Position numbers and translations under genes: made by a program. Below the pieces are notes generated by a model. The model was not told where the DNA came from and did no database searches. It saw only the letters and a program-made list of their open reading frames with translations. From a virus, in the IMG/VR virus record IMGVR_UViG_3300032116_000037, positions 1 through 64,000 of that record: 64,000 bases of DNA. The stretch is one strand, 5' to 3'. Below, piece by piece: positions 1-17,919 of this stretch (position 1 is the stretch's first letter; every line of letters starts with the position of its first letter).

Positions 1-201
1 CGAGCATGCGACTTTGGAGCGGGGGGCGCAGGCCCCTTGAGGGGCCGAGCACAGCGAAGCGGGGGGTAGGCGCAGCCCCCGAGGGGGCGAGCATGCGACT
101 TTGGAGCGGGGGGCGCAGGCCCCTTGAGGGGCCGAGCACAGCGAAGCGGGGGGTAGGCGCAGCCCCCGAGGGGGCGAGCATGCGACTTTGGAGCGGGGGG
201 C
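1..201. repeat. 87-bp GC-rich tandem repeat, 2.3 copies
   Basis: Two full units (1-87 and 88-174) are identical and a third starts at 175 and matches for 27 bases before diverging. Each unit holds the hairpins GGCCCC/GGGGCC (31-46 in the first unit) and GCCCCC/GGGGGC (75-88). The array probably continues to the left of the window. Because 87 is divisible by three, the unit reads open in one frame, but the composition and hairpins point to non-coding repeat DNA. Confidence 0.9.
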
Positions 202-224
202 TGGCGCGGCGCGATAGCAAGCGG

Positions 225-294
225 CATGCCAGGGCTTTGACTGGCATGACGTTTGCAGCGCCATATAGCCAGCTCGTGCGAGGTTTTGCGAGCT
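225..294. repeat. Two hairpins of the GGCTTTG-loop family
   Basis: At 225-248 an 8-bp stem (CATGCCAG/CTGGCATG) encloses the loop GGCTTTGA. At 271-294 a 6-bp stem (AGCTCG/CGAGCT) encloses TGCGAGGTTTTG. The loops match the core of hairpins at 901, 1785, 1886, 9066 and 9173. Confidence 0.7.
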
Positions 295-322
295 CAGTTT
301 TGTTTTTTTAACGGCTAGAGAT

Positions 323-345
323 AAAAAAAGGAGCCTTTCGGCTCC
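323..345 (-). terminator. Rho-independent terminator of the 351-821 gene
   Basis: Read on the minus strand, the perfect stem GGAGCC-GAAA-GGCTCC (330-345) is followed by seven T residues (323-329). It starts 6 bp after the stop codon of the minus-strand gene. The duplicated copy near 1628-1645 has a decayed version of the same hairpin. Confidence 0.85.
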
Positions 346-350
346 ACGGA

Positions 351-821
351 CTAGTTGAAGCAGCCGAAAGTTTCGACTAACTGCACCATCCAGCCGCTTT
401 CCCCATAGGTTCCGATGCAGCTGATGGCGTCTTTGGTAAAGACCCATTTGCCGCCGAACTGGGCGTCAGTCCGAACTGCGATAAGGCAGCGGCGGACTGG
501 GATGTTGTGGACGCGGAGTTCCGCGTTTAGGAACTTGTCTTTCCGCGTGATGCGAACAGCCACTGCGGCTCCGCTAGGGGCAAGAAGGGGTTGGGAGCCT
601 GCATCAAAGGAGACCATTTGGTCAGGCTCCAGCATACAAAGCACCCTAGGAACGGCAGACGTCCACTCCTCGGCGTTTTCTTGGTCTGCAGGACCCTGAC
701 TGACGCGGAAGTCAGACTCTTTTAGGACAGTCCGGCCCGTAATCAGGGCGTCGGAGGGGATGAAGCACCCTGTTTCTTGGCGTTCCGCAGCTTCCGTAAC
801 TCTACCATTTTTCCGTTTCAT
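351..821 (-). CDS. Hypothetical protein, intact copy of an inverted duplicated gene (156 aa)
   Basis: The product is not recognised. The start at 821 is chosen because an AGGAGAGAG ribosome binding site lies just upstream. A longer reading to 971 would begin in the AT-rich spacer. The protein is soluble, with no membrane segment, and has a central stretch VRITRKDKFLNAELRVHNIP followed by a GGKWVF/ESGWMVQL C-terminal part that could be beta-rich. It is much richer in GC than the genes further right and is followed by its own terminator. A diverged, broken copy lies in opposite orientation at 1143-1621, so this gene belongs to an inverted duplication and was probably brought in by transfer. Confidence 0.7.
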   Translation of the reverse strand: MKRKNGRVTEAAERQETGCFIPSDALITGRTVLKESDFRVSQGPADQENAEEWTSAVPRVLCMLEPDQMVSFDAGSQPLLAPSGAAVAVRITRKDKFLNAELRVHNIPVRRCLIAVRTDAQFGGKWVFTKDAISCIGTYGESGWMVQLVETFGCFN

Positions 822-1142
822 AAGCTCTCTCCTAGCAAGTGGGTCGAGAAGTTCGACCCTTCGCGGAAAAGGCGGACGATAGAGTATGAACAATAAAAAA
901 ATGCGTGCGAGGCTTTGCGAGCACTCATCTAGACCGTTACAAGTGTAAGTGGAGAGCGGAAAAAAATGCAAAATTTAAAAAAATTTGAGCTTTGACAAAT
1001 TTTTTTAGTTATCTAATCGCCACTGTGTAGTTAAATCGCAGCCTAATTTTGTATTTTTTTAGCTTGCGGCCGCTCGTAACGGGTAAGCCGCCTAGCGAGG
1101 GTCGAACTTCTCGACACACTTGCGACCAAAGGAGAGAGCGTA
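822..1142. promoter_or_regulatory. Spacer between the inverted gene copies
   Basis: No gene is seen here. The stretch holds a GC-rich leader conserved on both sides (GGGTCGAACTTCTCGAC near 842-858 on the minus side and 1099-1115 on the plus side), one constant-loop hairpin at 901-928, and an AT-rich centre (960-1020) with a TTGACA at 992-997. A TCTAAT follows at 1012, but the 14-bp spacing is short for a sigma70 promoter. The symmetry suggests divergent promoters for the two copies. Confidence 0.45.
901..928. repeat. Constant-loop hairpin
   Basis: The stem ATGCGTGC/GCACTCAT has one mismatch and encloses the 12-base loop GAGGCTTTGCGA, identical to the loops at 1785, 1886, 9066 and 9173 although the stems differ. 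Confidence 0.75.
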
Positions 1143-1621
1143 ATGAAACGAGAAAAATGGCAGAGTTACGGAAGCTTGTATTGCGGAACGACAAGAAACG
1201 GGGTGATTCAGACCCGGAGACCAATGCGTTACGGGACGGACTGTCTTAAAAGAGGATGGCTTTCGCGTCACAAAAGGGTCTGGCAGAGCAAGAAAGCGTC
1301 GAGGAGTGGGCGTTTGCCGTTTCTAGGGTGTTTTGTATGTTGGAGCCCGACCAAATGGTATCATTTGATACAGGGGCCCGACGCCTTATTGTCACTAGTG
1401 GAGACGTAGTGGTTGTTCGCGTCACGTGGAAAGGCGAGTTTTTAAACGCGGGACTACGTGTCCACAATATTCCAGTCTGCCGCTGTCTTATCGCTGTTCG
1501 GAGTGGCTCCTAGTTTGGCGGCGAATTGGTCTTTGCCGAAGACGTTATCAGTTGTATCGGAACCGCCGGGGAAAGCGGCTGGATGGTACAGTTAGTCGAA
1601 ACTTTCGGCTGCTTCAACTAG
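1143..1621 (+). pseudogene. Decayed inverted copy of the 351-821 gene
   Basis: The DNA aligns along its length with the minus-strand gene at 351-821, including the ribosome-binding region (GGAGAGAG) and the first codons ATGAAACG. A one-base insertion after codon 2 to 3 puts the start out of frame. The middle is readable from about 1260 to 1510 (for example MLEPDQMVSFD and RVHNIPVCRCLIAVR, nearly identical to the intact copy). An in-frame TAG at 1511-1513 replaces a glutamine codon. The rest (GESGWMVQLVETFGCFN) then reads to a TAG at 1619. The downstream terminator hairpin is also degraded. The gene is most likely dead. Confidence 0.85.
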
Positions 1622-1706
1622 TCCGTTGAGACGAAAGGATCCTTATTTTAGCTCTGGCCGCTTCTTCGCTGGCGTGGTGCGGTAGCACCATATAGCCAGC
1701 GTGTGC

Positions 1707-1721
1707 GAGCTTTGCGAGCTC
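1707..1721. repeat. Short hairpin of the same repeat family
   Basis: GAGCT/AGCTC encloses TTGCG. The preceding bases (ACCATATAGCCAGC, 1687-1700) are almost the same as those before the 271-294 hairpin (GCCATATAGCCAGC), so a longer unit is shared between 259-294 and 1686-1721. Confidence 0.6.
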
Positions 1722-1759
1722 CATTTTAATGTCACGGTTAAAGTTCGCATCTAAATGCT

Positions 1760-1906
1760 TCAGCGGCCGCAAATAGAACGGTGCGAGGCTTTGCGAGCAC
1801 TCGTTCAGGCCGCAGCGGCCGTAAGCGGCCAGCGACGACCCCCTGGAGGGGGTCTAGCATCGGGGGTGTTGCGTGCCTGTAGTCCGAGGCTTTGCGAGGA
1901 TTACAG
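1760..1906. repeat. 147-bp composite GC-rich repeat, copy 1
   Basis: This copy contains, in order, a hairpin GAACG-GTGC/GCAC-T-CGTTC with loop GAGGCTTTGCGA (1776-1806), the hairpin GACCCCC/GGGGGTC (1837-1854), and the hairpin CTGTAGTCC/GGATTACAG (one G-T pair) with the same GAGGCTTTGCGA loop (1877-1906). The same order and length are found in direct orientation at 9041-9187. No plausible gene is seen between 1622 and 2021. Confidence 0.85.
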
Positions 1907-2021
1907 AACAGCACGCCGCTTGGCAAGGACGCACGCTGCAGGAACGTCAGAGAAGCGGTGAAAGACGTCCCGCAGCGTTCCTTTTGCTGCTAAAGTGCGG
2001 CCAGGGTCTCGGTTGAGACAG

Positions 2022-2048
2022 AAAAAAAGGAGAATGTTTCCACTCTCC
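2022..2048 (-). terminator. Terminator at the end of the minus-strand block
   Basis: On the minus strand GGAGA/TCTCC (2029-2048) is followed by seven T residues (2022-2028). It lies 12 bp beyond the last gene of the minus-strand operon. Confidence 0.75.
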
Positions 2049-2059
2049 CTTTATTTTAT

Positions 2060-2218
2060 TTAATAATCTTCTGGATGAGGAACTTCTGGTCCCGTATACG
2101 CTGGATTCTTAACCCATACATCATATGGTGTTAATATCCATGGTTGTTCTTTTCTTTCTTCAGCTACATTAGCTGCGAATTCTCGCATAGCATCTTGTTC
2201 TGTAGCCATTTCATCCAT
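2060..2218 (-). CDS. Small hypothetical protein (52 aa)
   Basis: Not recognised. The start at 2218 has a strong AGGAGAGAAA site immediately upstream. The N-terminal half (MDEMATEQDAMREFAANVAE) looks helical and acidic; the C-terminal half is rich in proline and aromatic residues (PWILTPYDVWVKNPAY). It is the last gene of the minus-strand block, 13 bp from the next gene, and is followed by a terminator. Confidence 0.65.
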   Translation of the reverse strand: MDEMATEQDAMREFAANVAEERKEQPWILTPYDVWVKNPAYTGPEVPHPEDY

Positions 2219-2231
2219 TTTCTCTCTCCTG

Positions 2232-2459
2232 TTAATATGTTTCCTTAATGAAATCAATGATTTTATCCACACTGTAATCCCAGAAGTATCCAGTCCTTCC
2301 TTCTGGGGGATTCAGTTCTTGAATTTCAAAATACTCCGCAGTTCGGTGCATCTTGAATTTGATTCCTTTATACTCAATATTGGCAATGTGCATATCACCA
2401 TGTTCATCTGGTAATACATCTTCTACTGCCGCAATCCAAATGTTGTCGTTTTGAAACAT
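2232..2459 (-). CDS. Small hypothetical protein (75 aa)
   Basis: Not recognised. An AGGAGAGAA site precedes the ATG at 2459. The sequence suggests a small mixed alpha/beta protein with a charged N-terminal half (DVLPDEHGDMHIANIEYKG) and a C-terminal helix (SVDKIIDFIKETY). No cysteine pairs or membrane segments. It is co-oriented and closely spaced with its neighbours. Confidence 0.7.
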   Translation of the reverse strand: MFQNDNIWIAAVEDVLPDEHGDMHIANIEYKGIKFKMHRTAEYFEIQELNPPEGRTGYFWDYSVDKIIDFIKETY

Positions 2460-2468
2460 TTCTCTCTC

Positions 2469-2666
2469 CTATTGATAAATCTCTCTGAACTGCCTTACAA
2501 ACCACGGCTCTTTAATAAGAGCAAAGATACCAGCAATATTATAATGAAATGTCACAAGATCACCAGTTGTTTTGTGGTACATCTCTACTGGCGACTCTCC
2601 ATTAAGCATAATGACTACTTCATGCCCATGCAACCAAAAACTGCAGAAGAATGTAAAATTCTCCAT
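2469..2666 (-). CDS. Small hypothetical protein (65 aa)
   Basis: Not recognised. A GAAGAGAGAAAAAG site precedes the ATG. The protein is hydrophobic and aromatic at its N-terminus (MENFTFFCSFWLHGHEVVIM) and ends in a basic helix (EPWFVRQFREIYQ). It lies 9 bp upstream of the 2459 start and belongs to the same operon. Confidence 0.65.
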   Translation of the reverse strand: MENFTFFCSFWLHGHEVVIMLNGESPVEMYHKTTGDLVTFHYNIAGIFALIKEPWFVRQFREIYQ

Positions 2667-2688
2667 CTTTTTCTCTCTTCTATTTTAT

Positions 2689-2862
2689 TTACCAAAACCA
2701 CCCATCAAATAACCAATATACAACTTGTCCTGTTGCATATCCTGCATGAGCACTAAACAACCACATAGTTAATATGTTTATTCCTTTGTCCACTGGGCAA
2801 TGTCTTGGTTTTTTCCACTCTTGTTCACTCAAATACTGAGCAAATTCAATAAACTCATCCAT
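2689..2862 (-). CDS. Small probable membrane protein (57 aa)
   Basis: The minus strand encodes MDEFIEFAQYLSEQEWKKP followed by a hydrophobic segment (about residues 29-50, GINILTMWLFSAHAGYATGQ and following) and an aromatic end FDGWFW. An AGGAG site stands 6 bases before the start at 2862. One membrane segment is likely. Function unknown. Confidence 0.6.
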   Translation of the reverse strand: MDEFIEFAQYLSEQEWKKPRHCPVDKGINILTMWLFSAHAGYATGQVVYWLFDGWFW

Positions 2863-2896
2863 GAGTTTCTCCTAGTGATAAAATTGATTCTCTGCT

Positions 2897-3103
2897 TTAC
2901 AGATGGACGCGCACCCGACCCAAAGCCGTGTGCAAATCTTCTACCTTCCTGATAAATTCGTCCGAACAACAGCCCGGATTTGCAAGGATTCGATTACATC
3001 GAGCTTCAAGTTCTTTCAACACACGGAAATCCGACGCCTTATCAATTGCCGGAGGTTGGTTAATTGTTTGATTTGGACTGGCCCAACGTTGCGTTTCATT
3101 CAT
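2897..3103 (-). CDS. Small hypothetical protein (68 aa)
   Basis: The start at 3103 (MNETQRW) is chosen because GGAG lies six bases upstream; an ATG four codons earlier (3115) contains that site within its own codons. The C-terminal two thirds (LKELEARCNRILANPGCCSDEFIRKVEDLHTALGRVR, residues 30-66) is predicted helical by eye. Function unknown. Confidence 0.6.
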   Translation of the reverse strand: MNETQRWASPNQTINQPPAIDKASDFRVLKELEARCNRILANPGCCSDEFIRKVEDLHTALGRVRVHL

Positions 3104-3230
3104 GTCAAACTCCATTCATGCTAATTAAAACCAAACACAATGTACAAAAACCGGTACTCCCAGCAGAGGAGAGATAACTGCTTAGTTTCCCGGTACAACT
3201 TAGAGGGAGAGAATCTCTTAGTTGTTAAAA

Positions 3231-3306
3231 GGTGGGTGACGGGAGTCGAACCCGCATGGATTTGATTCACAGTCAAATTTCTGAAAACCACTACAGAACA
3301 CCCAAC
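3231..3306 (-). tRNA. tRNA-His (GTG)
   Basis: The minus strand folds into a cloverleaf. The acceptor is TTGGGTG with CACCCAC, with one T-C mismatch at 1:72 but a G at -1 opposite C73, the identity mark of tRNA-His. The anticodon stem is TTTGA/TCAAA with loop CTGTGAA (anticodon GTG) and the T arm is GCGGG-TTCGACT-CCCGT. CCA is not encoded. Confidence 0.9.
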
Positions 3307-3423
3307 ATAAAAAACAGCCTTGAGTAACCACACTCTTACTGTACGGCCTTTAATTTCACTTACAAGTAACCAGCCTTCATTCTCAAGTTGAAGCATCTTG
3401 GCATTTTTTCTCTCCTTTATGAA
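3307..3423 (-). other. tRNA-tRNA spacer with a doubtful short reading frame
   Basis: A good AGGAGAGAAA site precedes ATG 3404, but that frame stops after 14 codons. A second ATG at 3396 opens a frame starting MLQLENEGWLLVSEIKGRTV that is protein-like for about 30 residues and then runs straight through the tRNA-His gene. This may be a gene truncated when the tRNA arrived, or a one- or two-base frameshift of a real small gene. Confidence 0.3.
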
Positions 3424-3507
3424 TGGTTTCAGTGGGACTTGAACCCACACGGGATAATTCCCATAGGATTTTAAATCCTAGGTGTCTGCCGATTCCACCA
3501 TGAAACC
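3424..3507 (-). tRNA. tRNA-Leu (TAA)
   Basis: Type II cloverleaf on the minus strand. The acceptor is GGTTTCA/TGAAACC, the D region GGTGGAATCGGCAGAC is typical of tRNA-Leu, the anticodon stem is TAGGA/TCCTA with loop TTTAAAA (anticodon TAA), there is a long variable arm, and the T arm is GTGGG-TTCAAGT-CCCAC. The discriminator is A73. Confidence 0.92.
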
Positions 3508-3514
3508 AAAAAAA

Positions 3515-3699
3515 CAGTTCTACTGGGATGGGCTTCAACCATCAATAGCTTAATAGGTTGTACAATTATTAGGTACATATCCCACCGGCCTTTTAGCTCC
3601 GGATTATTTTTTAGCTATTAGTCTTTCTGATTTAAAAACCAAGTAGACTAGATATACACTCTACTGTGTCTGCCATTTCCGCCATAAAACCAAAAAACA
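3515..3699 (-). ncRNA. Structured RNA or degenerate tRNA-Leu/Tyr-like element
   Basis: On the minus strand the 5' end (GGTTTTATGGCGGAAATGGC, then AGACAC) strongly resembles the 5' half of the adjacent tRNA-Leu. Its GGTTTTA can pair with TAGAACT near 3519-3525, an acceptor-like helix with two G-T pairs. Between them, about 170 bases hold other helices: AGTAGA/TCTACT, TAGCT/AGCTA, TGGGAT/ATCCCA, and a T-arm-like GATGG-TTGAAGC-CCATC. A normal anticodon arm is not visible. It could be a decayed tRNA with an insertion or a distinct structured RNA. Confidence 0.4.
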
Positions 3700-3935
3700 C
3701 GCGGGTTGGTTTTACACCAACTACTCTACTATAGAGCGGTATGGGCTATTAGTATCCATTCAGGTTTGGTTCTGGCTTATTGCTAAACACCCTAACTGCG
3801 ATACGCTGCACCCGCTTCCCTAGAAGGACCTAGTCCCTTGCACGCGTGGTATATTTTACTGTTCATTACGCGAAATTTATTCTATTCTCCTTTGTCAAAG
3901 TTAAACACTGCAAATTAAGTGCAGCATGGGGCTAA
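3700..3935 (-). ncRNA. Hairpin-rich non-coding stretch
   Basis: No gene is seen. On the minus strand CACGCG near 3840-3846 can pair with CGCGTG near 3698-3703, enclosing hairpins such as CTCTA-TAG-TAGAG and GTTGGT-GTAA-AACCAAC. This suggests one folded RNA of about 145 nt, processed together with the neighbouring tRNAs. The identity is unknown. Confidence 0.35.
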
Positions 3936-4008
3936 TGAGACTGGCGAGATTCGAACTCACGACCAGTAAATTAAAAGTTTACTGCTCTACCAACTGAGCT
4001 ACAGTCTC
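3936..4008 (-). tRNA. tRNA-Lys (TTT)
   Basis: Complete 73-nt cloverleaf on the minus strand. The acceptor is GAGACTG/CAGTCTC with A73, the D arm is AGCTCAGTTGGTAGAGC, the anticodon stem is AGTAA/TTACT with loop ACTTTTAAT centred on TTT, and the T arm is GTGAG-TTCGAAT-CTCGC. CCA is not encoded. Confidence 0.95.
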
Positions 4009-4275
4009 CTTTTAAATAGCCGGGAGCACCAATCGGTAACTCTCAGCTTTAAAGCAGTTTTTCACCAGCTACTAAGAGCTATGAATTACCACTGCTTTGA
4101 ATGATTTAAATCAGCAGGCGGGTCCCTGAAACCACTTTAAAACCTGCTGTTTGGGAAGCTCACTGCGTTCGCCTAGAGATAAATTGACTCATTGCTGGGC
4201 CATATCTCAGGCGGGAACACTTTTAAATACGACCGCATGAACCCTGCGACTTCTGGCAGCGGCTCATGTATCCTA
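4009..4275. ncRNA. Three consecutive long hairpins beside the tRNA-Lys gene
   Basis: No gene is seen. Perfect inverted repeats are AAAGCAGT/ACTGCTTT (about 4052-4101), CAGCAGG/CCTGCTG (about 4112-4151) and GAGATA/TATCTC (about 4176-4209). Their regular succession next to tRNAs suggests transcribed, folded RNA rather than protein-coding DNA. The strand is unclear, though the neighbours are all on the minus strand. Confidence 0.4.
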
Positions 4276-4782
4276 TTATATAACAAGGTTAGATTCAAGT
4301 GTGATTACCTCCGTGGGAATATTATGCTGTTGGCAGTACTTGAATGCTTGTGCTGTTCCCCTGCTTGTGGGATTGAATACCCATACCTTATTAACGGAGT
4401 CCATCATCCACTCATTCCGTACAAAATTTGAATGTCGTCCGTTACTGTAGATACTGTCGCAGATGTATTGCGTGTCAGTCGATTGATTCACCAATTCTTG
4501 GAACTCTATCATCCGATTTCGTCCAGTTTGTGAAGTCTGACCCCAGTAATACTCGCCATACCCTGCATTTGGGATGGCTGCACACCAGTCAGTTCTGGTT
4601 AGAATGGCTGCTTTTGCCAATGCTTCATCAAATCCCTCTGCCATCCCGCTGATGACGTAATCCACACGGTCCGAAATGATTTTTCGTGTAAGCAGTTCAA
4701 TCATTTCCGCCATGATGGCTGGTTTGGTTACTAACGACCGACTTCCTGCTCCCGCAATCATATTGTTGTAAACGCAGTTCAT
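4276..4782 (-). CDS. SLOG-superfamily (DprA/YspA-like) Rossmann protein (168 aa)
   Basis: The protein begins with a glycine-rich nucleotide-binding loop (AGAGSRSL, residues 10-17). It continues with the conserved SLOG strand-turn-helix VISGMAEGFDEALAKAA (about 43-59), RNEWMMDSVNKVWVF (about 122-136) and GTAQAFKYCQQHNIP (about 142-156). This arrangement matches YspA/cpYpsA-like SLOG proteins, which bind nucleotides or nucleotide-derived ligands and often act in nucleotide sensing or conflict systems. The AGGAGAG site before ATG 4782 supports the start. It is the first gene upstream of the structured RNA and tRNA cluster. The ligand is not predictable from sequence. Confidence 0.75.
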   Translation of the reverse strand: MNCVYNNMIAGAGSRSLVTKPAIMAEMIELLTRKIISDRVDYVISGMAEGFDEALAKAAILTRTDWCAAIPNAGYGEYYWGQTSQTGRNRMIEFQELVNQSTDTQYICDSIYSNGRHSNFVRNEWMMDSVNKVWVFNPTSRGTAQAFKYCQQHNIPTEVITLESNLVI

Positions 4783-4820
4783 GTCACTCTCCTATTGTTG
4801 TGATAAGCCCACAAGACACA

Positions 4821-4994
4821 TCAAGCATTTTGAATATCTTCTTGAATATCTTGTAACCGTTCTGCCCAATCAATGGCTTCTTGAAGATTCGCAAACTCGT
4901 CAAAAATCTCATCATCAGTCATGGTCTCAATGATCCAATGGCCACCTTCATCATAATTTGCCATTGCCCAATCTTTAATTTCTTGTACTTTCAT
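4821..4994 (-). CDS. Small acidic hypothetical protein (57 aa)
   Basis: The ATG at 4994 follows GGAGAGAAAAG. The protein is acidic, with a C-terminal helix LQEAIDWAERLQDIQEDIQN. An earlier in-frame start would extend into the SD region and is rejected. Function unknown; operon partner of its neighbours. Confidence 0.65.
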   Translation of the reverse strand: MKVQEIKDWAMANYDEGGHWIIETMTDDEIFDEFANLQEAIDWAERLQDIQEDIQNA

Positions 4995-5017
4995 CTTTTC
5001 TCTCCTTGTATTGTTTA

Positions 5018-5248
5018 TCACCAACCAACCCACCACTTATTATTAGATTCTTGCACTCCAAACCCTCTCTTTTTTAATTCTTCAATAGTTTGTGTATATG
5101 TTGATAAATCAATATAGATTCCTCTCATACCTTCTTCAGCAGCTTCTTTGATTTTTTGAATTACTTCTTGGAGTTCTTCATGTACAATTTTTAATTTTAC
5201 TTCATACGCAGTTTTTCTTGCTTGATTTACATCATATTCGATTGTCAT
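5018..5248 (-). CDS. Small hypothetical protein with helical core (76 aa)
   Basis: The start ATG 5248 (MTIEYDVNQ) is preceded by AGGAG. Residues 10-45 form a long amphipathic helix (KIVHEELQEVIQKIKEAAEEG), followed by a beta-alpha-beta-like end (IYIDLS, TIEELKKRGFGVQ, KWWVGW). The end resembles small nucleic-acid- or protein-binding folds, but no family is recognised. Confidence 0.65.
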   Translation of the reverse strand: MTIEYDVNQARKTAYEVKLKIVHEELQEVIQKIKEAAEEGMRGIYIDLSTYTQTIEELKKRGFGVQESNNKWWVGW

Positions 5249-5274
5249 ATCCAACTCCTGCTAATTAAATCCAG

Positions 5275-5348
5275 TAGGGCCGCCCAGACTCGAACTGGGA
5301 ACCTAAAAATTATGAGTTTTTTGCTCTAACCGATTGAGCTACGGCCCC
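5275..5348 (-). tRNA. tRNA with CAT anticodon (Met, or possibly Ile2)
   Basis: 74-nt cloverleaf on the minus strand: acceptor GGGGCCG/CGGCCCT (one G-T), D arm AGCTCAATCGGTTAGAGC, anticodon stem AAAAA/TTTTT with loop CTCATAA, T arm CCCAG-TTCGAGT-CTGGG, A73. It lacks the fMet 1:72 mismatch, so it should be elongator Met or lysidine-modified Ile2. The window has a second CAT tRNA at 21675 and a TilS gene. Confidence 0.9.
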
Positions 5349-5362
5349 ATTATTAATATACC

Positions 5363-5530
5363 CTAAGTCATCTTATTTCTGTCTAACAATTCCTGAATTT
5401 CCTGAGTTCTTTTCTTATTGGCCACTATCCAGACTGTTTTACCCCTGATAAATATTTTTCTCTCTTTTACGGGGTTTTTGAGCTTTTCGAAAAAATTTTG
5501 GACTTTTTTGACAATTTTGAGATTTTTCAT
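5363..5530 (-). CDS. Small basic hypothetical protein (55 aa)
   Basis: Starts at ATG 5530 (MKNLKIVKKVQNFFEKLKNP). The sequence is strongly lysine/arginine rich, with a central RGKTVWIVANKK strand, and may bind nucleic acid. No clear ribosome binding site is visible. A longer reading from a GTG at 5629 would cross the GAACG repeats. Moderate doubt that it is expressed. Confidence 0.4.
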   Translation of the reverse strand: MKNLKIVKKVQNFFEKLKNPVKERKIFIRGKTVWIVANKKRTQEIQELLDRNKMT

Positions 5531-5563
5531 GCTTAAAAAGTGGTGTAAGTCACTACAATATAT

Positions 5564-5725
5564 CGTTAACGTTCTTAGGACGAACGCTAACGCTGCTTTC
5601 AAGTCTTTATCGGTCCGCTTGAGAAACACCGAATTGAGACGGTTGTTAAAACAACACTTACATTTATCACCTGTAAGTATTCTACGTCTTTAAAGAACGT
5701 TATCAGTCTTTAGCGAACGTTAACG
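5564..5725. repeat. Cluster of four GAACGYTAACG motifs
   Basis: CGTTAACGTTC (5564-5574) and GAACGCTAACG (5582-5592) form a near-perfect inverted repeat with a 7-bp spacer. GAACGTTATCA (5695-5705) and GAACGTTAACG (5715-5725) follow, the last overlapping the stop of the next minus-strand gene. The arrangement looks like paired protein-binding sites (operator or initiator iterons). Confidence 0.6.
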
Positions 5726-6016
5726 GTGCCCGCCCCGAATCTGTGCTGCTGTATCGTCAAAAACACGCCAAGCGTTAGCTAATGCTGTACCTACTCTCGC
5801 ATCGTCGTAATAGATGCCAGTTTGCTCCACTTCCTCGATAAAATGTCGAAATTCAGTAAGCAGCCTTTCAATTTTACAATTAACTTCCTCCCGCTCCGCC
5901 TTCCGTCCGGCAGTGTAGGCCGCTTGCCAAAACTGCCACGCAAAAATGTCGTCGCAAGATACCCTATACTCCTTAGCCCGCTTCTCAAACTTCGCTCGCA
6001 TCTTGTCGTCGCTCAT
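5720..6016 (-). CDS. Conserved-looking phage hypothetical protein (98 aa)
   Basis: The protein is highly charged and helical. The central motif IFAWQFWQAAYTAGRKAERE (about residues 24-43) is of a kind seen in many small phage proteins of unknown function (WQAAYxAGR-AERE). The rest is helix (CKIERLLTEFRHFIEEVEQ). The start ATG 6016 overlaps the stop of the upstream gene (ATGA), showing translational coupling. GC content is higher than in the plus-strand region. Confidence 0.75.
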   Translation of the reverse strand: MSDDKMRAKFEKRAKEYRVSCDDIFAWQFWQAAYTAGRKAEREEVNCKIERLLTEFRHFIEEVEQTGIYYDDARVGTALANAWRVFDDTAAQIRGGHR

Positions 6017-6153
6017 TCGCCCCCATCCTTATCACTTGAAATATCTTTCCGTGCCAAATACTTTGCGATTGCCGTTCCAAGCTGAAACGCACAAACTGTC
6101 GATACACCAATGGCTAATCCTGTTATAAACGCATGGATTACTGACTGATACAT
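6013..6153 (-). CDS. Small membrane protein (46 aa)
   Basis: The minus strand encodes MYQSVIHAFITGLAIGVSTV followed by CAFQLGTAIAKYLARKDIS and a short charged tail. A single hydrophobic helix (residues 6-32) is followed by a basic and polar tail. The gene overlaps the next by 4 bp and follows AGGATGAGG-like SD bases. Holin-like size, but the function is unknown. Confidence 0.6.
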   Translation of the reverse strand: MYQSVIHAFITGLAIGVSTVCAFQLGTAIAKYLARKDISSDKDGGE

Positions 6154-6177
6154 TCCTCATCCTTTCCGCAGCGTGCG

Positions 6178-6300
6178 TCAGGCCACTCGCTTCATTGTTT
6201 TATTGCACTTGTGGCACTTTGGCTTTACACCGTTCCACGCCCGCTCTGTGCGTTTGCACTTCGGGCACTTGTAGGTAGCTCCATTCATCTGCTTCGGCAC
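6178..6300 (-). CDS. Zinc-ribbon mini-protein (40 aa)
   Basis: The protein has two CxxC knuckles, YKCPKCKRTE and PKCHKCNKTM, 18 residues apart, typical of a zinc ribbon. The GTG start at 6300 is supported by GGAGG five bases upstream. The next in-frame ATG is four codons later. It probably binds nucleic acid or a protein partner. Confidence 0.65.
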   Translation of the reverse strand: MPKQMNGATYKCPKCKRTERAWNGVKPKCHKCNKTMKRVA

Positions 6301-6456
6301 ATTAACCTCCCGAGCTAGAGAACAACGCGGCCCGCTTCGCCGCGTTCGCCTAGCCCAAATTTGACTTATACTGCACCGAAATGAAAAAGATGACCCAGAA
6401 CACGCATTTTCAAAAATAACGCATTCTGGGTCAAATTTGACGGCTTTATGAGCACT
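6301..6456. promoter_or_regulatory. Intergenic region with two inverted repeats
   Basis: CGCGGC/GCCGCG at 6326-6344 and a perfect 10-bp inverted repeat TGACCCAGAA/TTCTGGGTCA at 6391-6433 with a 23-bp loop. On the minus strand the second could be an operator or weak terminator between the 6457-6678 gene and the zinc-ribbon gene. No T-run is seen. Confidence 0.5.
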
Positions 6457-6678
6457 TTAGGCTCGCTTAGCCAAATCCCTGACAGGAAACCATTCATTAT
6501 GACCAGTGACCCAAAGACAAACTTTGGATTCTTTAGTCTCTCGGTTGGTTAATACCCGAGGTTCCGTCATGATTTTTCCGTTGGTGCCAGTGCTCTTTAC
6601 GAACACTTTTCGGCCAATTGGAAGATTTTCACTGACCCATTCCAAATCTTTAGTGATTTTTTCTGAGTTTGTGCTCAT
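6457..6678 (-). CDS. Hypothetical protein, SH3-like composition (73 aa)
   Basis: ATG 6678 follows AAGGAAAAG. After a helical start (SEKITKDLEWVSENL) the rest is a string of short strands (KVFVKSTGT, KIMTEPRVLT, KVCLWVTGHNEWFPVRDLAK) resembling a small beta-barrel with a conserved W-F-PVRDL end. Function unknown. Confidence 0.65.
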   Translation of the reverse strand: MSTNSEKITKDLEWVSENLPIGRKVFVKSTGTNGKIMTEPRVLTNRETKESKVCLWVTGHNEWFPVRDLAKRA

Positions 6679-6983
6679 TCGTATCTTTTCCTTTGAATAA
6701 CATTGTGGATTTGTTGCATTTGGCAAAACCTCTCAAGAATATGATAATCCCACCTTTCTTGAAAATGCTTCAAATACAGATTATTTACTCTGTTAAGTTC
6801 TTTGAAAGCTTTTTTGGGATTATTTTCCTTTTTGAATACTTCATCAGTTTGATGGAAATATTCTTTTCGCAGTTCAATAATATCCATATAGTCTTCTACA
6901 TGAATATTGAACTTACGGAGCTTTGCCCCTCGTGTTTTTAGTACTACTGCGAGGATTCCCATGGCTCTCCCTTTTTTAGACAT
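6675..6983 (-). CDS. Helical hypothetical protein (102 aa)
   Basis: The start is taken at ATG 6983 (MSKKGRAMG); a GTG ten codons upstream is the alternative. The protein is lysine rich and helical, with a likely coiled-coil stretch ELRKEYFHQTDEVFKKENNP and ERWDYHILERFCQMQQIHNV. It overlaps the next gene's start by 4 bp. Function unknown. Confidence 0.6.
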   Translation of the reverse strand: MSKKGRAMGILAVVLKTRGAKLRKFNIHVEDYMDIIELRKEYFHQTDEVFKKENNPKKAFKELNRVNNLYLKHFQERWDYHILERFCQMQQIHNVIQRKRYE

Positions 6984-7129
6984 TTTGGGGTAACTTGATT
7001 CATCCAATTCCACAAGTCAGCAGGTTTGCCCTGCTTAACTAACTTACTAGCTCCTTCAACAATCTTCCCATTCTTATCACGCGGATAAAGAACAAGGGTC
7101 GGCTTGGGGCTAGTTTCAGCTTTGGACAT
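6944..7129 (-). CDS. Small hypothetical protein (61 aa)
   Basis: ATG 7129 follows GGAAGAATGT. The protein starts MSKAETSPKPTLVLYPRDKN and ends GEPWESSQ. The central GKPADLWNWMNQVTPKCLKK is helical. It overlaps the flanking genes on both sides, as expected in a compact phage operon. Function unknown. Confidence 0.6.
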   Translation of the reverse strand: MSKAETSPKPTLVLYPRDKNGKIVEGASKLVKQGKPADLWNWMNQVTPKCLKKGEPWESSQ

Positions 7130-7646
7130 ACATTCTTCCTTTTTCTGAATCAAACACTTTTTCAAATGAGACACGAGACCCGTTTTTAATTACGAACCAA
7201 TTGCGAGGAAAGCGGCCCTCTGTGGCATTTACATACACTTCCCACATTTCATCTTGGCTCCATCCAGCATGCCCCGTGCCAATCGGAGCAATTAAAAAAT
7301 TGAGGAAGGGCTTCCTTTTTGTATACGAATACAGCTCTTTAAGCTGTGCCTCTATTTCTTCAAGTGGCACGCTGCGGGGTTGGACTGCTGTAGTACACGT
7401 GAGGATACCCCACCCAATTCCATCTGTTCCAGCCATTAGCCCGCTGGATATTCGAAGGACAGCAAACAACCCTCTAACGCGATTGCCACTGTTCCATTGA
7501 TTTTGAAATTTTTTATTATTTTCCCATCCTGATGCTCTGCCCATATAAGCCCATCCGGCACTACCAGCCCCATGAAAACCATTTTCATTTGTTTGAAAAA
7601 CGAAAATATCTCTATGTCCAATAGCACCCAATGCGGGCAGTTCCAT
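7116..7646 (-). CDS. A1S_2505-like phage protein (176 aa)
   Basis: Sequence signatures match the phage A1S_2505-type family: IFVFQTNENGFHGAGSAGWA (residues 13-32, the N-G-x-HGAG loop), WGILTCTTAVQPRSVPLEEI (about 79-98) and FLNFLIAPIGTGHAGWSQDE (about 113-132). The HGAGSA and IGTGHAGW loops resemble the ligand-binding loops of macro/NADAR-type folds, so a nucleotide or ADP-ribose-like ligand is conceivable, but this is inference. The start at 7646 (MELPALGAIG) is chosen where the conserved region begins. An upstream in-frame ATG at 7718 would add a hydrophobic stretch. Confidence 0.7.
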   Translation of the reverse strand: MELPALGAIGHRDIFVFQTNENGFHGAGSAGWAYMGRASGWENNKKFQNQWNSGNRVRGLFAVLRISSGLMAGTDGIGWGILTCTTAVQPRSVPLEEIEAQLKELYSYTKRKPFLNFLIAPIGTGHAGWSQDEMWEVYVNATEGRFPRNWFVIKNGSRVSFEKVFDSEKGRMYVQS

Positions 7647-7738
7647 TTTATTCACTTCATTTGTTAGAGTAAAACAATGTAAGAAAAAAAAGGGTACTAA
7701 GCGTATATATGTGTTCACCGCCGTTCCCCTCTGATAAA

Positions 7739-7825
7739 CTATAGTTTGTATCCAGTAGTTTCTTCAATATGAATGAGAATCATTTTGAAGATTGTAAAGA
7801 ATACAATGAGTGGTAGGATAAACAC
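7739..7825 (-). CDS. Possible 28-aa single-span membrane peptide
   Basis: A GTG start directly follows the stop of the upstream gene. The peptide is hydrophobic (FILPLIVFFTIFKMILI) with a short polar tail. No clear ribosome binding site. It could be real through coupling or chance in an AT-rich gap. The rest of 7647-7827 shows no gene. Confidence 0.3.
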   Translation of the reverse strand: MFILPLIVFFTIFKMILIHIEETTGYKL

Positions 7826-7827
7826 TA

Positions 7828-8484
7828 CTACTCGTCGCTGTCACCATCATCTTCGAGCGAGGCGAACAACTGTCCGAGAGTGTCCAGTCCCAATCCCGGT
7901 ACCGACTCATCACCCTTCGAGTAAAGGATGTCGTCTAACCCATCAGCCTTCGCACGTCCCGGAGTCCAGTAGGTACCATCTTCGGAAGCACCAACAAAGC
8001 TGAGAATCGATTGCGACTCAGATTGAATCGCTTGCAGCTTTGGAATCTGAATCTTCATGGACTGGACCGTGTTCCGCCACATTTCTGACAGCGAAACCTT
8101 TTGTGCCTCAGCCGACGCGTGCAACTTGTTCATGAGAACTTCGTCGCCAATCTTGTCCTGCAACTCTTGGACAGTCCCAATCGCGGTGAGAGCCTCGAAC
8201 TTCTCCAACTTTGCACTTGACAGTTGGTTGCGACGAATGGCTCGTGGGATAATACCCTCTGCCTTCGGGTTCGCTTCGTTCTTGGTAAAAATCTTGCGAT
8301 AGAGTGCTTCAGCTACCGCCTGCCGGTCGTCATCCTTCAGTTCACGGTCGACAAACGTTGACTTGAGATAGTCAATCGCGTCCTTCTTGGACATGTCACC
8401 ACGCTTCATCGCAGTGTACGATTCGAGAAGCTGCTCGTTAGAAACCTTGTTCACGTGAATGCTGTTTTTGCCTTTACGGGCCAT
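7828..8484 (-). CDS. Hypothetical protein with acidic C-terminus (218 aa)
   Basis: The start is placed at ATG 8484 (MARKGKNSIHV). The N-terminal basic part is followed by mostly helical sequence (EQLLESYTAMKRGDMSKKDA; TVQELQDKIGDEVLMNKLHA) and a strongly acidic tail ending EDDGDSDE. GC content and codon use are higher than its AT-rich neighbours, like the protein at 24214. No family is recognised; the layout (basic head, helical body, acidic tail) would suit a nucleoprotein or scaffold. Confidence 0.75.
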   Translation of the reverse strand: MARKGKNSIHVNKVSNEQLLESYTAMKRGDMSKKDAIDYLKSTFVDRELKDDDRQAVAEALYRKIFTKNEANPKAEGIIPRAIRRNQLSSAKLEKFEALTAIGTVQELQDKIGDEVLMNKLHASAEAQKVSLSEMWRNTVQSMKIQIPKLQAIQSESQSILSFVGASEDGTYWTPGRAKADGLDDILYSKGDESVPGLGLDTLGQLFASLEDDGDSDE

Positions 8485-8566
8485 GTGTGTAACCTTTGTA
8501 ACAGATGTGAAAAACCAAAACAAAACTCAAAAATCAAAATCAACCATCGACCAATTTCTTACACTT

Positions 8567-8803
8567 TCAATTCTCCTTTTGACGAAGATACAACTTGCCA
8601 CCACCTTTCACACGAAGATAGTGCAAATTTGTTAACTTACAGTCGCACAAATCCACCATCATCTGATGGTCTTCAACACTTTCAGGAAACTCCAATTTTA
8701 CTGTCACTGGTGGATTATACAATCTCAAAGAAAGCTCATTATCTTGAATGTTCGTTTTCAACACTCCAATCTTACACGCCACTTCCAATATTGTTGCTGT
8801 CAT
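8567..8803 (-). CDS. Small hypothetical protein (78 aa)
   Basis: ATG 8803 (MTATILEVACKIGV) follows AAGGAAAAAG. It has a beta-rich middle (LSLRLYNPPVTVKLEFPES) and a C-terminal strand-rich end (LHYLRVKGGGKLYLR). Overlaps the upstream gene by 32 bp. Function unknown. Confidence 0.6.
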   Translation of the reverse strand: MTATILEVACKIGVLKTNIQDNELSLRLYNPPVTVKLEFPESVEDHQMMVDLCDCKLTNLHYLRVKGGGKLYLRQKEN

Positions 8804-8960
8804 TTTCTTTTTCCTTAAAACACTGACAACCAATAAATTTATTTTTCTTTAATATTTCTTTTATTGTATTATCAGCTTCTTTAATTGTTTTTGCGACACA
8901 CTCAAAAACTAATTTTTTATTTTCCCACCCGCCAGCATTATCATAATATTTAAATTTCAT
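8772..8960 (-). CDS. Small hypothetical protein (62 aa)
   Basis: Starts MKFKYYDNAGGWENKK after AAAGGAAAA. A beta strand KLVFECVAKT is followed by a lysine-rich helix (EADNTIKEILKKN). It is the first gene of the minus-strand block, next to the divergent regulatory region. The strand-strand-helix pattern is loosely like the array proteins on the other side of that region. Confidence 0.6.
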   Translation of the reverse strand: MKFKYYDNAGGWENKKLVFECVAKTIKEADNTIKEILKKNKFIGCQCFKEKENDSNNIGSGV

Positions 8961-9392
8961 TTTTTTTCCTTTTTATTAAATCGCCCGACGATACACTACT
9001 TTTCATTTTTTTATTTTTATTTTTTTATTTTTTTATTTTTTCAGCGACCGCCAGAGGAACGGTGCGAGGCTTTGCGAGCACTCGTTCAGCCGGCAGCGGT
9101 CGCAATGGCCGGCCTAGCGACGACCCCCTGGATAGGGGGTCTAGCATTGGGGGTCGAGTCGAGACCGCAGACGAGGCTTTGCGAGTCAAGGTCGAGACTT
9201 GCTTTTCCGCGTCGCATATTGATAAAAATAATCTCAAAATAATACAGAAAATATATTAGAGGAAAAATTCCCGCCGTAAAGGCTGTTCAAGGGCTGTTAA
9301 AATTCCCTTAAGTCCGGCACGCTGTTTGCTCTATAGTGGCCCGGCAAGTGCCGCATTTCCATTTTATAAATAAAAATAATAAATAAAATAAT
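8961..9392. promoter_or_regulatory. Divergent intergenic region
   Basis: Minus-strand genes end their upstream side here and the plus-strand series starts at 9393. From 9000 to 9040 there is an almost pure T/A tract, then the 147-bp GC-rich repeat, then an AT-rich promoter-like stretch with CTATAGT (9332-9338) and TATAAAT (9365-9371) ahead of the first plus-strand ATG. The GC hairpin region between 9240 and 9360 (GCCGGCAC and GCCCGGCAAGTGCCGC) is also palindromic. Confidence 0.55.
9041..9187. repeat. 147-bp composite GC-rich repeat, copy 2
   Basis: The order of elements is the same as at 1760-1906: CAGCGACCGC, hairpin GAACG-GTGC/GCAC-T-CGTTC with loop GAGGCTTTGCGA (9057-9087), hairpin GACCCCC/GGGGGTC with loop TGGATA (9122-9141), the bases TCTAGCATTGGGGGT, then GAGGCTTTGCGA again (9173-9184), here with only a 3-bp stem GAC/GTC. 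The copies lie in direct orientation 7.28 kb apart. Confidence 0.85.
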
Positions 9393-10079
9393 ATGCAAAA
9401 TAATAATTTTATTGTAGATAAAGTTCATGGTGAATTGTATAATAATATTTTATACTTTACCTTGGAAAAACGCGAAAGTTTAGAATATTTGTGGAATTTT
9501 CGTATCGAAAAGTCAAAGTTTAACAATAATTTTGATAAATTTGCTAAGTTTTGCCGCGAAGTTACTAAAAAGACGGCCACGGAACTTAATAAGTACGTGG
9601 AAAATAAGGAAAAACTGCTCCCTATATTAGAATATAGTGGAAATAGCCCGCAAAAGTTAGAAATTCAGGCCAAACTTAATAAAATTATGCAAAATTTTGC
9701 TGAAATGGGCTTATTCCCATTAAAGCGTGTAGTTAAGTATAATCATATCCCGCTCAAGAAAAATATTACTGGATATGCTATCTTAGCTACTTCTACTTAT
9801 AGTAATCAGTCTCATAATATTAATGCTGAGTATGAGCATCCGCGTGTTGCTATTGTAGAAGAAGAAAATAAAGAAGATAAAAAAGTTAGCTGGGAAATGG
9901 CCCCTCCCAAAAGAAAAGCCCCACGTAAGCGGCAATATACTAAAAGACGTGGGCCTTCTACTAATAATAAATATTTCACTATTGATACCCGCAGCTTAAT
10001 TAAAGAAGATGAAGCTATGGGTATTGCTTATAATGCAGAAAAGAATAATAGTATTAGTAAGTTGCTAGAGGATTTATAA
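9393..10079 (+). CDS. Basic hypothetical protein, distantly like the 24214 protein (228 aa)
   Basis: This is the first gene of the plus-strand series. Residues 60-80 (TKKTATELNKYVENKEKLL) and 104-125 (KIMQNFAEMGLFPLKRVVKY) resemble TKLTTDLNLYIQNRENIQ and RVMVRYQKMGFNYATRTAIY of the protein at 24214, suggesting a shared helical domain. A very basic linker (PPKRKAPRKRQYTKRRG, about 171-187) could bind DNA or RNA. The C-terminus SKLLEDL also recurs in spirit in the 24214 protein (SLEDLL). Function unknown. Its stop overlaps the start of the first array gene (TAATG). Confidence 0.75.
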   Translation: MQNNNFIVDKVHGELYNNILYFTLEKRESLEYLWNFRIEKSKFNNNFDKFAKFCREVTKKTATELNKYVENKEKLLPILEYSGNSPQKLEIQAKLNKIMQNFAEMGLFPLKRVVKYNHIPLKKNITGYAILATSTYSNQSHNINAEYEHPRVAIVEEENKEDKKVSWEMAPPKRKAPRKRQYTKRRGPSTNNKYFTIDTRSLIKEDEAMGIAYNAEKNNSISKLLEDL

Positions 10080-10240
10080 TGGAATATAAAATTTCAGCCA
10101 GATTCTCAGATGCTAAAATGTTTATAATATTAACGTGCAGCTCAGATAAATTAGTAGATGTAATTAGATTGAAAAGAAATCTTATATGTCGTTGGCTTAT
10201 GAATAGTTTAATTATCAGAAAATATGAGAATTTTAATTAA
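10079..10240 (+). CDS. Array small protein 1 (53 aa)
   Basis: First member of the tandem array of tiny genes. ATG overlaps the upstream stop (TAATG). Reads MEYKISARFSDAKMFIILT, then a helix DKLVDVIRLKRN: the strand, strand, turn, helix, strand order seen through the array. No Shine-Dalgarno motif. Function unknown. Confidence 0.6.
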   Translation: MEYKISARFSDAKMFIILTCSSDKLVDVIRLKRNLICRWLMNSLIIRKYENFN

Positions 10241-10385
10241 ATACCGCAATTCCCGCATTTATTTATTTTTTAAAGATGAAAAAATGCGCAATATGGCATA
10301 TACAAAACGTGGCATGATAAATTATCCCCACCAAAGATTTTTCCTATTTACTCGCGGTGAATATGAGAGTATATGCACAAAATAA
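10224..10385 (+). CDS. Array small protein 2 (53 aa)
   Basis: Starts 17 bp inside the previous gene in another frame. MRILIKYRNSRIYLFFKDEK gives two strands and an acidic turn; the end is QRFFLFTRGEYESICTK. Function unknown. Confidence 0.55.
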   Translation: MRILIKYRNSRIYLFFKDEKMRNMAYTKRGMINYPHQRFFLFTRGEYESICTK

Positions 10386-10522
10386 ATGTTAATTTTGACT
10401 CATGGGCGAATAGTTTTTGTCTGAAAACAGAAGATAAAATTATAATGGGTATGATAGTATTTAAAAGAATCATAATAATGCATCCACATATATCTAGTAT
10501 TTATCTTTTAAAAACAATTTAA
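10373..10522 (+). CDS. Array small protein 3 (49 aa)
   Basis: Overlaps the previous gene by 13 bp. Starts MHKINVNFDSWANSFCLKTE, continues with a hydrophobic basic strand (MIVFKRIIIMHPHI). Function unknown. Confidence 0.55.
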   Translation: MHKINVNFDSWANSFCLKTEDKIIMGMIVFKRIIIMHPHISSIYLLKTI

Positions 10523-10523
10523 A

Positions 10524-10676
10524 ATGGATAAAATTCAAGTATATTATTCAGTAAGCCTAAAATGGTTTATATTGAAATATAGTTGCAAAAAAACCGCAGA
10601 TGCTTTAAAAGATAGAATATATCTAATACATATAGATACTCCAGTCTTATCAATGCGCCGCATACTTAAAGACTAA
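10524..10676 (+). CDS. Array small protein 4 (50 aa)
   Basis: One base after the previous stop. MDKIQVYYSVSLKWFILKYS, then helix KKTADALKDRIYLIH. A typical array member: two strands then an ALKDRI helix. Function unknown. Confidence 0.55.
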   Translation: MDKIQVYYSVSLKWFILKYSCKKTADALKDRIYLIHIDTPVLSMRRILKD

Positions 10677-10679
10677 ATT

Positions 10680-10829
10680 ATGATTACAATAGTTCAAGAC
10701 GAATCTACTCTAACGGCAATAAGCAAATATAAATATATATCTTTAATCATGGGGATGAAGTTATTAATATTATCTAATACTGATAAGCTTATTGTTAAGG
10801 GCGGCGCTATTTTAGTTGAAATTGAATAA
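10680..10829 (+). CDS. Array small protein 5 (49 aa)
   Basis: Three bases after the previous stop. MITIVQDESTLTAISKYKYI, then ISLIMGMKLLILSNTDKLIV. Function unknown. Confidence 0.55.
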   Translation: MITIVQDESTLTAISKYKYISLIMGMKLLILSNTDKLIVKGGAILVEIE

Positions 10830-10831
10830 AT

Positions 10832-10981
10832 ATGTCAAATAAAATCATTGTTAGATACACCAGCAACCTTGATTTAATATCAATAATTTTCCCAGAAGAT
10901 AAGATTTTTATGGTCGAAATATTACTAGAAAAACGGGCCGCAATTTCTCCTTTAGAAATAGCATTTTTAATTCAGACTTAA
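10832..10981 (+). CDS. Array small protein 6 (49 aa)
   Basis: Starts two bases after the previous stop. Contains FPEDKIFMVEILLEKRAAIS; the FPEDK turn recurs as FPTDENKISV at 15846 and YPEDKNKIGV at 16058. Function unknown. Confidence 0.55.
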   Translation: MSNKIIVRYTSNLDLISIIFPEDKIFMVEILLEKRAAISPLEIAFLIQT

Positions 10982-10982
10982 A

Positions 10983-11148
10983 ATAAATAGTCAAACTCAA
11001 ACCACACTTTACGCCCGCCGAATTAAAGTATGGCGTATGTATAAATATATACCTAGAAACAGTAGATTGGCATACTCTTGCAAGAAAAATTGCCACTATT
11101 GTAACATTTGATTATTATACTAGAATAATAACATGGCCAAGCCCATAA
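10983..11148 (+). pseudogene. Frameshifted array member (group D)
   Basis: Residues SQTQTTLYARRIKVWRMYKY in one frame and IYLETVDWHTLARKIATIVT in the next line up with SQTQNSLIASSIRVLCYGKY and LYLESLDWLKIDNKIEYIRK of the intact gene at 13101. A one-base change between the halves breaks the frame and there is no ATG at the expected start, so this copy appears dead. Confidence 0.6.
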
Positions 11149-11276: not shown

Positions 11277-11315
11277 GTAAAAGGGACGCGGCCCGTAGAT
11301 TTTTGACTGAATAAG

Positions 11316-17028: not shown

Positions 17029-17033
17029 AATAA

Positions 17034-17436: not shown

Positions 17437-17438
17437 TA

Positions 17439-17725: not shown

Positions 17726-17746
17726 TTTTGAGACTTAAAAATTAAT

Positions 17747-17905: not shown

Positions 17906-17919
17906 TTCTGGGTAAAATA

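Follow-up and report, generated by a model that had tools for sequence, protein, structure and literature searches.

The first 9.2 kb of an environmental virus genome, IMG/VR virus record IMGVR_UViG_3300032116_000037, contain hairpins in which one 12-base loop, GAGGCTTTGCGA, is carried on stems of differing sequence. The locus raises the question of whether these hairpins form a true family and, if so, what the loop is for. The DNA analysed, referred to below as the window, comprises positions 1 to 64,000 of the record and is the first half of its 128,386 bases. A preliminary description had proposed a family of hairpins with compensatory stem changes, under selection for RNA or cruciform structure. 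We conclude that the constant-loop hairpins are a real small family, made up in part of two longer repeats and with a convincing second case elsewhere, and that the loop core is constant, biased to one strand and confined to non-coding DNA near the early/tRNA region. The loop probably serves as a recognition signal.

Constant loops and changing stems in the window

Searches of the complete record revealed exactly five copies of GAGGCTTTGCGA, starting at 909, 1785, 1886, 9066 and 9173; all are on the + strand, all lie within 9.2 kb, and each sits atop a stem of 3–9 contiguous pairs. The reversed loop sequence, used as a control, has zero copies in the record. A constant loop on different stems is thus as first described, the site then given as 901 preceding the loop start at 909 by 8 bases. 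When up to two mismatches were allowed, 8 matches were found in the window against a shuffle mean of 2.2, and none of 100 shuffles reached 8. The motif GGCTTTG has the same strand bias, with four + strand copies at 201–2000 (0.15 expected) and two at 9001–9250 (0.02 expected), and none on the − strand in either interval. At 2001–9000 there are no copies on the + strand and one on the − strand (0.28 expected per strand), and beyond 9250 there is one on each (3.06 expected per strand). With a covariance model of the five copies, run on the whole record as the preliminary description had suggested, all five are recovered at E values of 8.3e-6 or better; the model also finds variants at 1698 (E 0.095) and 278 (E 0.23) and two matches elsewhere with E > 2, so that every match with E < 1 is confined to the first 9.2 kb.

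Folding and alignment place the loops in the following features.

193–310, + strand: element A1, with a stem GCTGGC..GGCGC/GCGCC-ATATA-GCCAGC followed by a terminator-like hairpin (271–294) and a T-rich tail.
225–248, + strand: hairpin CATGCCAG / loop GGCTTTGA / CTGGCATG, 8 pairs, nested in A1.
900–929, + strand: single constant-loop hairpin, loop 909–920, stem GTGC/GCAC then ATG/CAT.
975–1008, + strand: hairpin with the related loop AGCTTTGA on an A/T-rich stem of 12–13 pairs, absent from the preliminary description.
1663–1731, + strand: element A2, a direct copy of A1 that lacks the inner arm, with GGTGC/GCACC in place of GGCGC/GCGCC and a terminator-like hairpin at 1707–1721.
1756–1926, + strand: element E1, defined by folding and by alignment with E2, with three hairpins: P1, an outer GC stem GCGGCCGC/GCGGCCGT enclosing the constant-loop hairpin at 1785; P2, GACCCCC/GGGGGTC, as in E2; and P3, a stem of 9+6 pairs with the constant loop at 1886.
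9037–9205, + strand: element E2, a direct copy of E1 with the P1-P2-P3 order kept and loops at 9066 and 9173, at the strand switch.

Four of the five exact loops therefore sit in E1 and E2, which are diverged direct copies of one three-hairpin element of about 170 nucleotides. To that extent the family consists of two copies of one longer element; the same core does recur on different stems in a second phage (see below). Related loops had also been proposed near 233, 277 and 1712. That at 233 (GGCTTTGA) is a genuine 8-pair hairpin; the variants at 280 and 1706 retain just a 2-pair stem and fold into other hairpins with T-rich tails, and they are not members. In P2 (9121–9157; 1836–1868), two conserved GGGGGT runs are available as alternative partners for GACCCCC, by eye a possible two-state switch. 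A coding explanation for E1 and E2 was considered and is disfavoured, the open reading frames (ORFs) there being short and overlapping on both strands.

The stems themselves differ in how much they reveal. Those at 909 (GTGC/GCAC) and at 1785 and 9066 (GGTGC/GCACT) have GTGC/GCAC in common; the remaining two, CTGTAGTCC/GGATTACAG at 1886 (9 pairs, including one G.T) and GAC/GTC at 9173 (with 4 + 5 more pairs across internal loops in the fold), are unrelated to it. For comparison, a 12-base segment taken anywhere in these stretches is flanked by 3 or more pairs with a frequency of 0.061, by 4 or more with 0.026 and by 9 or more with 0.001. The copies at 1785 and 9066 are homologous, with 33 invariant columns around the loop. 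Because GTGC/GCAC is identical in three copies, two of them homologous, this stem gives no covariation: it is conserved, and here the claim of compensatory change fails.

Elsewhere pairing is kept as the sequence changes, and for these stems the claim is supported. By eye, P1 shows a double change from G-C to A-T and a change from G.U to G-C between E1 and E2, and A1 and A2 differ by one compensatory double change, C-G to T-A (the automatic alignment of A1 and A2 left the 5′ arms out of register). P3 has a wholly different stem sequence in each of the two E elements, yet pairs in both. A loop kept while its stems are replaced is a strong sign of selected structure. Across the five window hairpins, 93.8% of cells are paired compared with 68.5% after shuffling and at most 62.5% in slid versions. 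In a covariation test on 4 distinct rows and 4 pairs, the score was matched by 6 of 500 shuffles; the number of pairs changed on both sides was 2, which 109 of the 500 shuffles equalled, and the window alone is for this reason thin evidence of covariation.

Five non-Watson–Crick pairs were counted by eye in these stems, all G.T on the + strand with no A.C, two of the five being stem ends, where an A.C would have gone uncounted. The apical unit is probably to be read as C-GA-G(G)-C-TTT-G-C-GA-G, with two sheared G.A pairs beneath a short cap. Sheared G.A pairs are stable in both RNA and DNA.

The loop core in a second phage, in viral contigs and in bacteria

The second case is locus L011, one of 17 loci retrieved by protein homology to the DprA-like protein of the window. 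Its 1,323-nucleotide divergent intergenic region contains six copies of GGCTTTG on one strand, where 0.1 would be expected, and none on the other. Five of these sites lie in hairpins of 5–11 pairs with differing stems, two of which (4407 and 4490) look related; the sixth has 3 pairs. The window and L011 phages, which are apparently distant, have the same loop core and so far little else in common. On the other side of this divergent intergenic region, positions 3634–3975 of L011 hold a run of seven perfect hairpins of 10–28 pairs with 3–4-base loops.

Of all 12 GGCTTTG sites in the first 9.3 kb of the window (+ strand) and in L011 (− strand), hairpin or not, 9 reach 5 or more stem pairs; among 2,535 control positions taken from these islands the share is 13.5%. 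The corresponding binomial value is 2.2e-6, or 3.9e-6 with homologues merged, relatedness being otherwise ignored. We place weight on this full count rather than on a set of 12 hairpins in which 47 of 48 cells are paired (shuffle maximum 39), because the members of that set were chosen for being hairpins; it omits window 280 and 1706, the homologous 9066, L011 4615, two other L040 sites and L028. Alignment A4, in which the L011 rows were cut off-centre, was kept out of the counts.

Other viral contigs add to this picture in lesser degree. Contig L040 has three loop copies, one of them on a 10-pair stem; L037 (genome G012) and its near-copies L026, L033 and L034 have two each, as does L044 (genome G017). 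Contigs L040, L037 and L044 are less independent because they were retrieved with the loop itself. When the whole records of the DprA-like relatives were scanned for AGGCTTTGYG (16 of the 17 loci, L017 being left out), a cluster of 4 matches was present only in the L011 record; two others had 2 and 1 scattered matches and 13 had none. A very large viral collection yielded 26 stretches with the 16-mer GCGAGGCTTTGCGAGC, a number judged, without a control scan, to be near chance. A scan for any constant 6-mer loop on at least three hairpins with different stems, over 115 sequences (1.31 Mb), also flags L006, L008 and A/T-rich stretches, including some in the genome of the window itself. Since other sets are flagged, part of such constant-loop signals arises without meaning. 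The L006 set comprises three hairpins on the reverse complement (291, 644 and 1029) with the constant loop TGGGCGGT, two on related stems and one on a different stem.

In bacteria the loop was sought as the 12-mer together with 8 bases to either side, the first base being other than G and the last other than C, which takes in a subset of sites. This pattern was found in 63 of 386 Cyanobacteriota genomes (86 rows; about 42 for the reversed control, by hand) and in 61 of 395 Bacteroidota genomes (82 rows; about 110 for the reversed control, by hand), so that the 12-mer outnumbers its reverse about twofold in Cyanobacteriota. There, 11 of 80 distinct sites (hand count) continue into GCGATCGC, taken here to be the HIP1 repeat, a possible source of part of the excess. 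Stems of at least 3 pairs are present at 10 of 80 distinct sites in Cyanobacteriota, compared with 4.5 after re-pairing of the flanks (shuffle fraction 0.010), and at 6 of 70 in Bacteroidota, compared with 3.5 (shuffle fraction 0.137). A general bacterial loop is disfavoured: most of the 12-mer sites have no stem, so that the loop by itself is no predictor of a hairpin. One Bacteroidota repeat, with a TCCC/GGGA stem, does bear the loop. Sixteen genome contigs carry two copies 76–106 bases apart, by inspection mostly inside longer near-identical repeats. The preliminary description had named confinement of the loop to identical longer repeats as the pattern that would count against it; this is the pattern of these contigs and not of the phage.

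Genomic setting and possible explanations

Around and between the repeats lie the following.

351–821, − strand: 156-amino-acid ORF with hairpins on both sides; a terminator-like hairpin (330–345) follows it.
1143–1629, + strand: inverted, frameshifted, pseudogene-like copy of the 351–821 gene.
2060–8960, − strand: the interval from E1 to E2, carrying leftward ORFs, four leftward tRNAs and the gene of the DprA-like protein (4276–4782).

The 156-amino-acid ORF and its inverted copy are thus surrounded by A1, the hairpin at 909 and A2. Differences between the two gene copies fall at all codon positions (25, 22 and 30). The ORF has zero PHROGs or Pfam matches, and its AlphaFold2 model (mean pLDDT, the predicted local distance difference test score, 47.6) is too low in confidence for use. 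The DprA-like protein matches phrog_768 and phrog_289 and has the 17 relatives in viral contigs mentioned above. At the left end of the contig, positions 1–201 consist of 2.3 repeats of an 87-nucleotide GC-rich unit with two hairpins, the first 27 bases of which have no other occurrence in the record at up to three mismatches.

GC content, gene strand and skew all shift at 9.2 kb. GC per kb is 0.38–0.44 at 2–9 kb and 0.24–0.35 from 10 kb on, and the cumulative GC-skew minimum of the record, at 9052, falls inside E2. A 223-kb relative with conserved gene order, G006, likewise has leftward genes, its skew minimum at the strand switch (115,203) and a 41–42% GC island with tRNAs beside the switch. 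Because G006 has the same plan, the 9.2-kb island is most likely native. An imperfect palindrome, CGTAAGTnnTT-N7-AAnnACTTACG, is present in G006 at least 20 times (about 117–140 kb; L083 105–192, 2168–2255, 2915–3002 and others; L082 17312–19200), often paired 53 nucleotides apart and near TTGACA/TAGAAT-like sequences, resembling an operator-like early promoter array.

Direct searches for relatives of the region gave nothing further. DNA searches of phage records with window 1–9300 (near) and 200–2000 (distant), and of plasmids with 200–2000 (distant), were without match, as was the 351–824 protein in phage records. Relatives of the proteins at 351–824, 7116–7718, 7828–8523 and 9393–10079 were not found in IMG/VR, from which the record itself was possibly excluded, and near-identical fragments of the window phage (G001–G004) did not match window 1–12000. 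A search for a shared loop can reveal such elements where regional DNA alignment gave nothing. Two further loci deserve mention in their own right: L055 encodes a collagen-like protein rich in G-A-T-G repeats at 1852–4233 and at the right end of the contig, the assembly ending within such repeats, and L054 has a glycosyltransferase-like ORF (16782–18407, − strand) whose first 362 amino acids are about 75% identical to Synechococcus phage ACG-2014f.

We tentatively favour a strand-specific structured RNA leader or set of recognition hairpins. On this view GGCTTT would be presented from a short GC-rich cap by an invariant apical module, whose closing pairs are probably two G.A (C-GA-G ... C-GA-G), and the stems beneath would be free to change in sequence. 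The hairpins would act as structured RNA transcribed from the + strand, rather than as single-stranded DNA: E2 may belong to the leader of the rightward genes that begin at 9.4 kb, the hairpins at 909 and 988 lie upstream of the old gene copy at 1143, and A1, A2 and E1 could be further + strand units. A phage or host protein, or another RNA, might read the loop and alter the behaviour of RNA polymerase or the ribosome, by antitermination or leader control. This proposal is favoured by the one-strand loops, the pairing kept on changed stems, the recurrence in L011 and the G.T pairs on the + strand, and also by orientation. In the window the DprA-like gene is leftward, and the loops at 9066–9184 are on the rightward strand ahead of an ORF from 9393; in the record of L011 the DprA-like gene is again leftward, the loops are at 2098–2510, and the first listed rightward ORF of at least 130 amino acids begins at 3344; in G012 loops at 8314–8417 precede a rightward ORF at 8674. 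In all three phages the loops are on the sense strand, 0.2–1.2 kb upstream of a rightward gene block, and a sense leader RNA fits for this reason. Of the original suggestion of selection on RNA or cruciform structure, selection on pairing is supported, pairing being kept as stems change; a cruciform is a weaker reading than a single-strand structure because all copies face one strand.

Several observations weigh against such a leader. E1 and A1 precede no rightward gene, which disfavours a pure leader role. Folding identifies neither strand nor molecule because the − strand and DNA fold about equally well: E1 (1752–1930) has z scores of −3.83 (+) and −3.20 (−), with none of 200 shuffles as good on either strand; E2 has −2.38 (+; 4 of 200 shuffles as good) and −2.77 (−; 1 of 200), and its + strand folded as DNA −2.68 (2 of 200). 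Promoter-like sites number 18 compared with 14.6 (standard deviation 4.4) in shuffles, and none stands out; none was found on the + strand at 8622–9363 in a sigma-70-like search, phage-specific promoters being outside its scope. The window covariance model detects L011 only weakly (E 0.2 and 0.97), and at the G006 strand switch the loop was not found, the sole match with one mismatch being far off at 1064. Covariation rests on few events because E and A have two copies each and the region no close relative. Over the whole genome, GCTTTG ranks 12th when 60 base permutations are ordered by how large a fraction of their copies has 7 or more stem pairs (3 of 52 for GCTTTG); all three such copies are on the + strand below 1.9 kb. 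Finally, the cyanobacterial stem excess is small, most sites in the 781 bacterial genomes of the two phyla being stemless.

The main rival makes E2 a replication origin, its hairpins being recognised as single-stranded DNA by a primase, an initiator or a virion RNA polymerase. We regard this as possible but doubtful. The skew minima of the window record, inside E2, and of G006, at its strand switch, are as it would predict, the loop pair of G017 is near the minimum (1990 and 2253), and in G012 the two are 2 kb apart (minimum 10,298, loops 8,314; 60,000 of 60,992 bases); a single-strand signal would suit the one-strand orientation, and E2 folds well as DNA. However, skew tracks gene direction, so that a minimum at a strand switch is expected regardless; E1, the hairpin at 909 and the A copies are away from the minimum, G013 has three loops and its minimum is not there (80,000 of 89,456 bases), and the G006 switch has no such loop. 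It is rather unlikely, in our estimation, that distant phages have a loop code in common, in which a GA-closed GGCTTTGC on freely exchanged stems would stand at the junction of the early region, invariably facing the same way as the outgoing genes, and be read by a dedicated factor as an early transcription switch or replication start.

Recombination between mobile repeats, with E1/E2 and A1/A2 shuffling gene modules in the manner of the promoter early stem-loop (PeSL) cassettes of T4-type phages and the hairpins marking module boundaries, would account for the position of the E copies on either side of 7 kb of small ORFs and tRNAs with distinct GC, and for the A copies, both ending in terminator-like hairpins, on either side of an inverted gene pair of which one copy has decayed. 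It is nevertheless unlikely, since promoter-like sites are at shuffle level, the terminator-like hairpin scan lists A1 271–294 and A2 1707–1721 and no E1 or E2 hairpin, the family is not dispersed over the rest of the genome, and copying alone does not explain whole-stem replacement inside alignable E copies. Chance, that is, GC-rich palindromic islands that happen to carry GGC-TTT-GC caps, draws on the stemless bacterial sites, the near-chance count of GCGAGGCTTTGCGAGC, the paired copies within longer repeats in 16 contigs and the other constant-loop sets flagged; it is made improbable by the excess of one-strand counts over expectation, about 27- and 100-fold for the two islands of the window and some 60-fold for L011, and by the 9 of 12 paired sites. 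Least probable is an assembly chimera in which the first 9.2 kb come from another genome: GC and gene strand do switch at 9.2 kb and both contig ends are in repeats, but syntenic G006 has the same plan, and its tRNA-Leu is a 78% match to that of the window, which is weak evidence.

Comparison with known systems

A search of window 1–12000 with Rfam 15 (E ≤ 5) gave only four tRNAs at gathering score and no listed match over the E or A elements or 900–929; L123 1800–3400 (E ≤ 1) gave nothing at gathering score. The string GAGGCTTTGCGA was not found in a literature text search, and the listed occurrences of TCATTGCGAG look unrelated by title. Lambda nut/boxB and HK022 put are small antitermination hairpins in early leaders, with two copies per genome and a loop read by protein or polymerase. 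The structured RNA leader proposed here, for which antitermination is a conjecture, may be likened to them; both E copies face the same strand, unlike those sites. REP/BIME/MITE-type palindromes offer another parallel, some bacterial repeats (Tychonema and Vicinamibacteraceae genomes) holding the same 12-mer on longer stems. Such repeats are near-identical within one genome, whereas the phage stems differ and the copies are confined to one region, with all model matches of E < 1 in the first 9.2 kb rather than dispersed.

Closer in setting are the PeSLs of T4-type phages (PMC4503421), stem-loops between early-region modules of large phages, with direct copies flanking modules; the E hairpins differ in having no terminator call, no adjacent promoter stood out beside them, and their constant loop on changing stems may be a further difference. 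The ornate RNAs GOLLD and ROOL (PMC12286853) are phage-borne, often near tRNA islands, and have conserved-loop hairpins; no covariance-model match to them was obtained (Rfam, E ≤ 5), and E is about 170 nucleotides compared with often more than 800 for GOLLD. Early gene control in large environmental phages is largely unknown, and the core that the two phages have in common is short enough to be tested as the binding site of a new factor for RNA or single strands, or as one side of an RNA–RNA contact.

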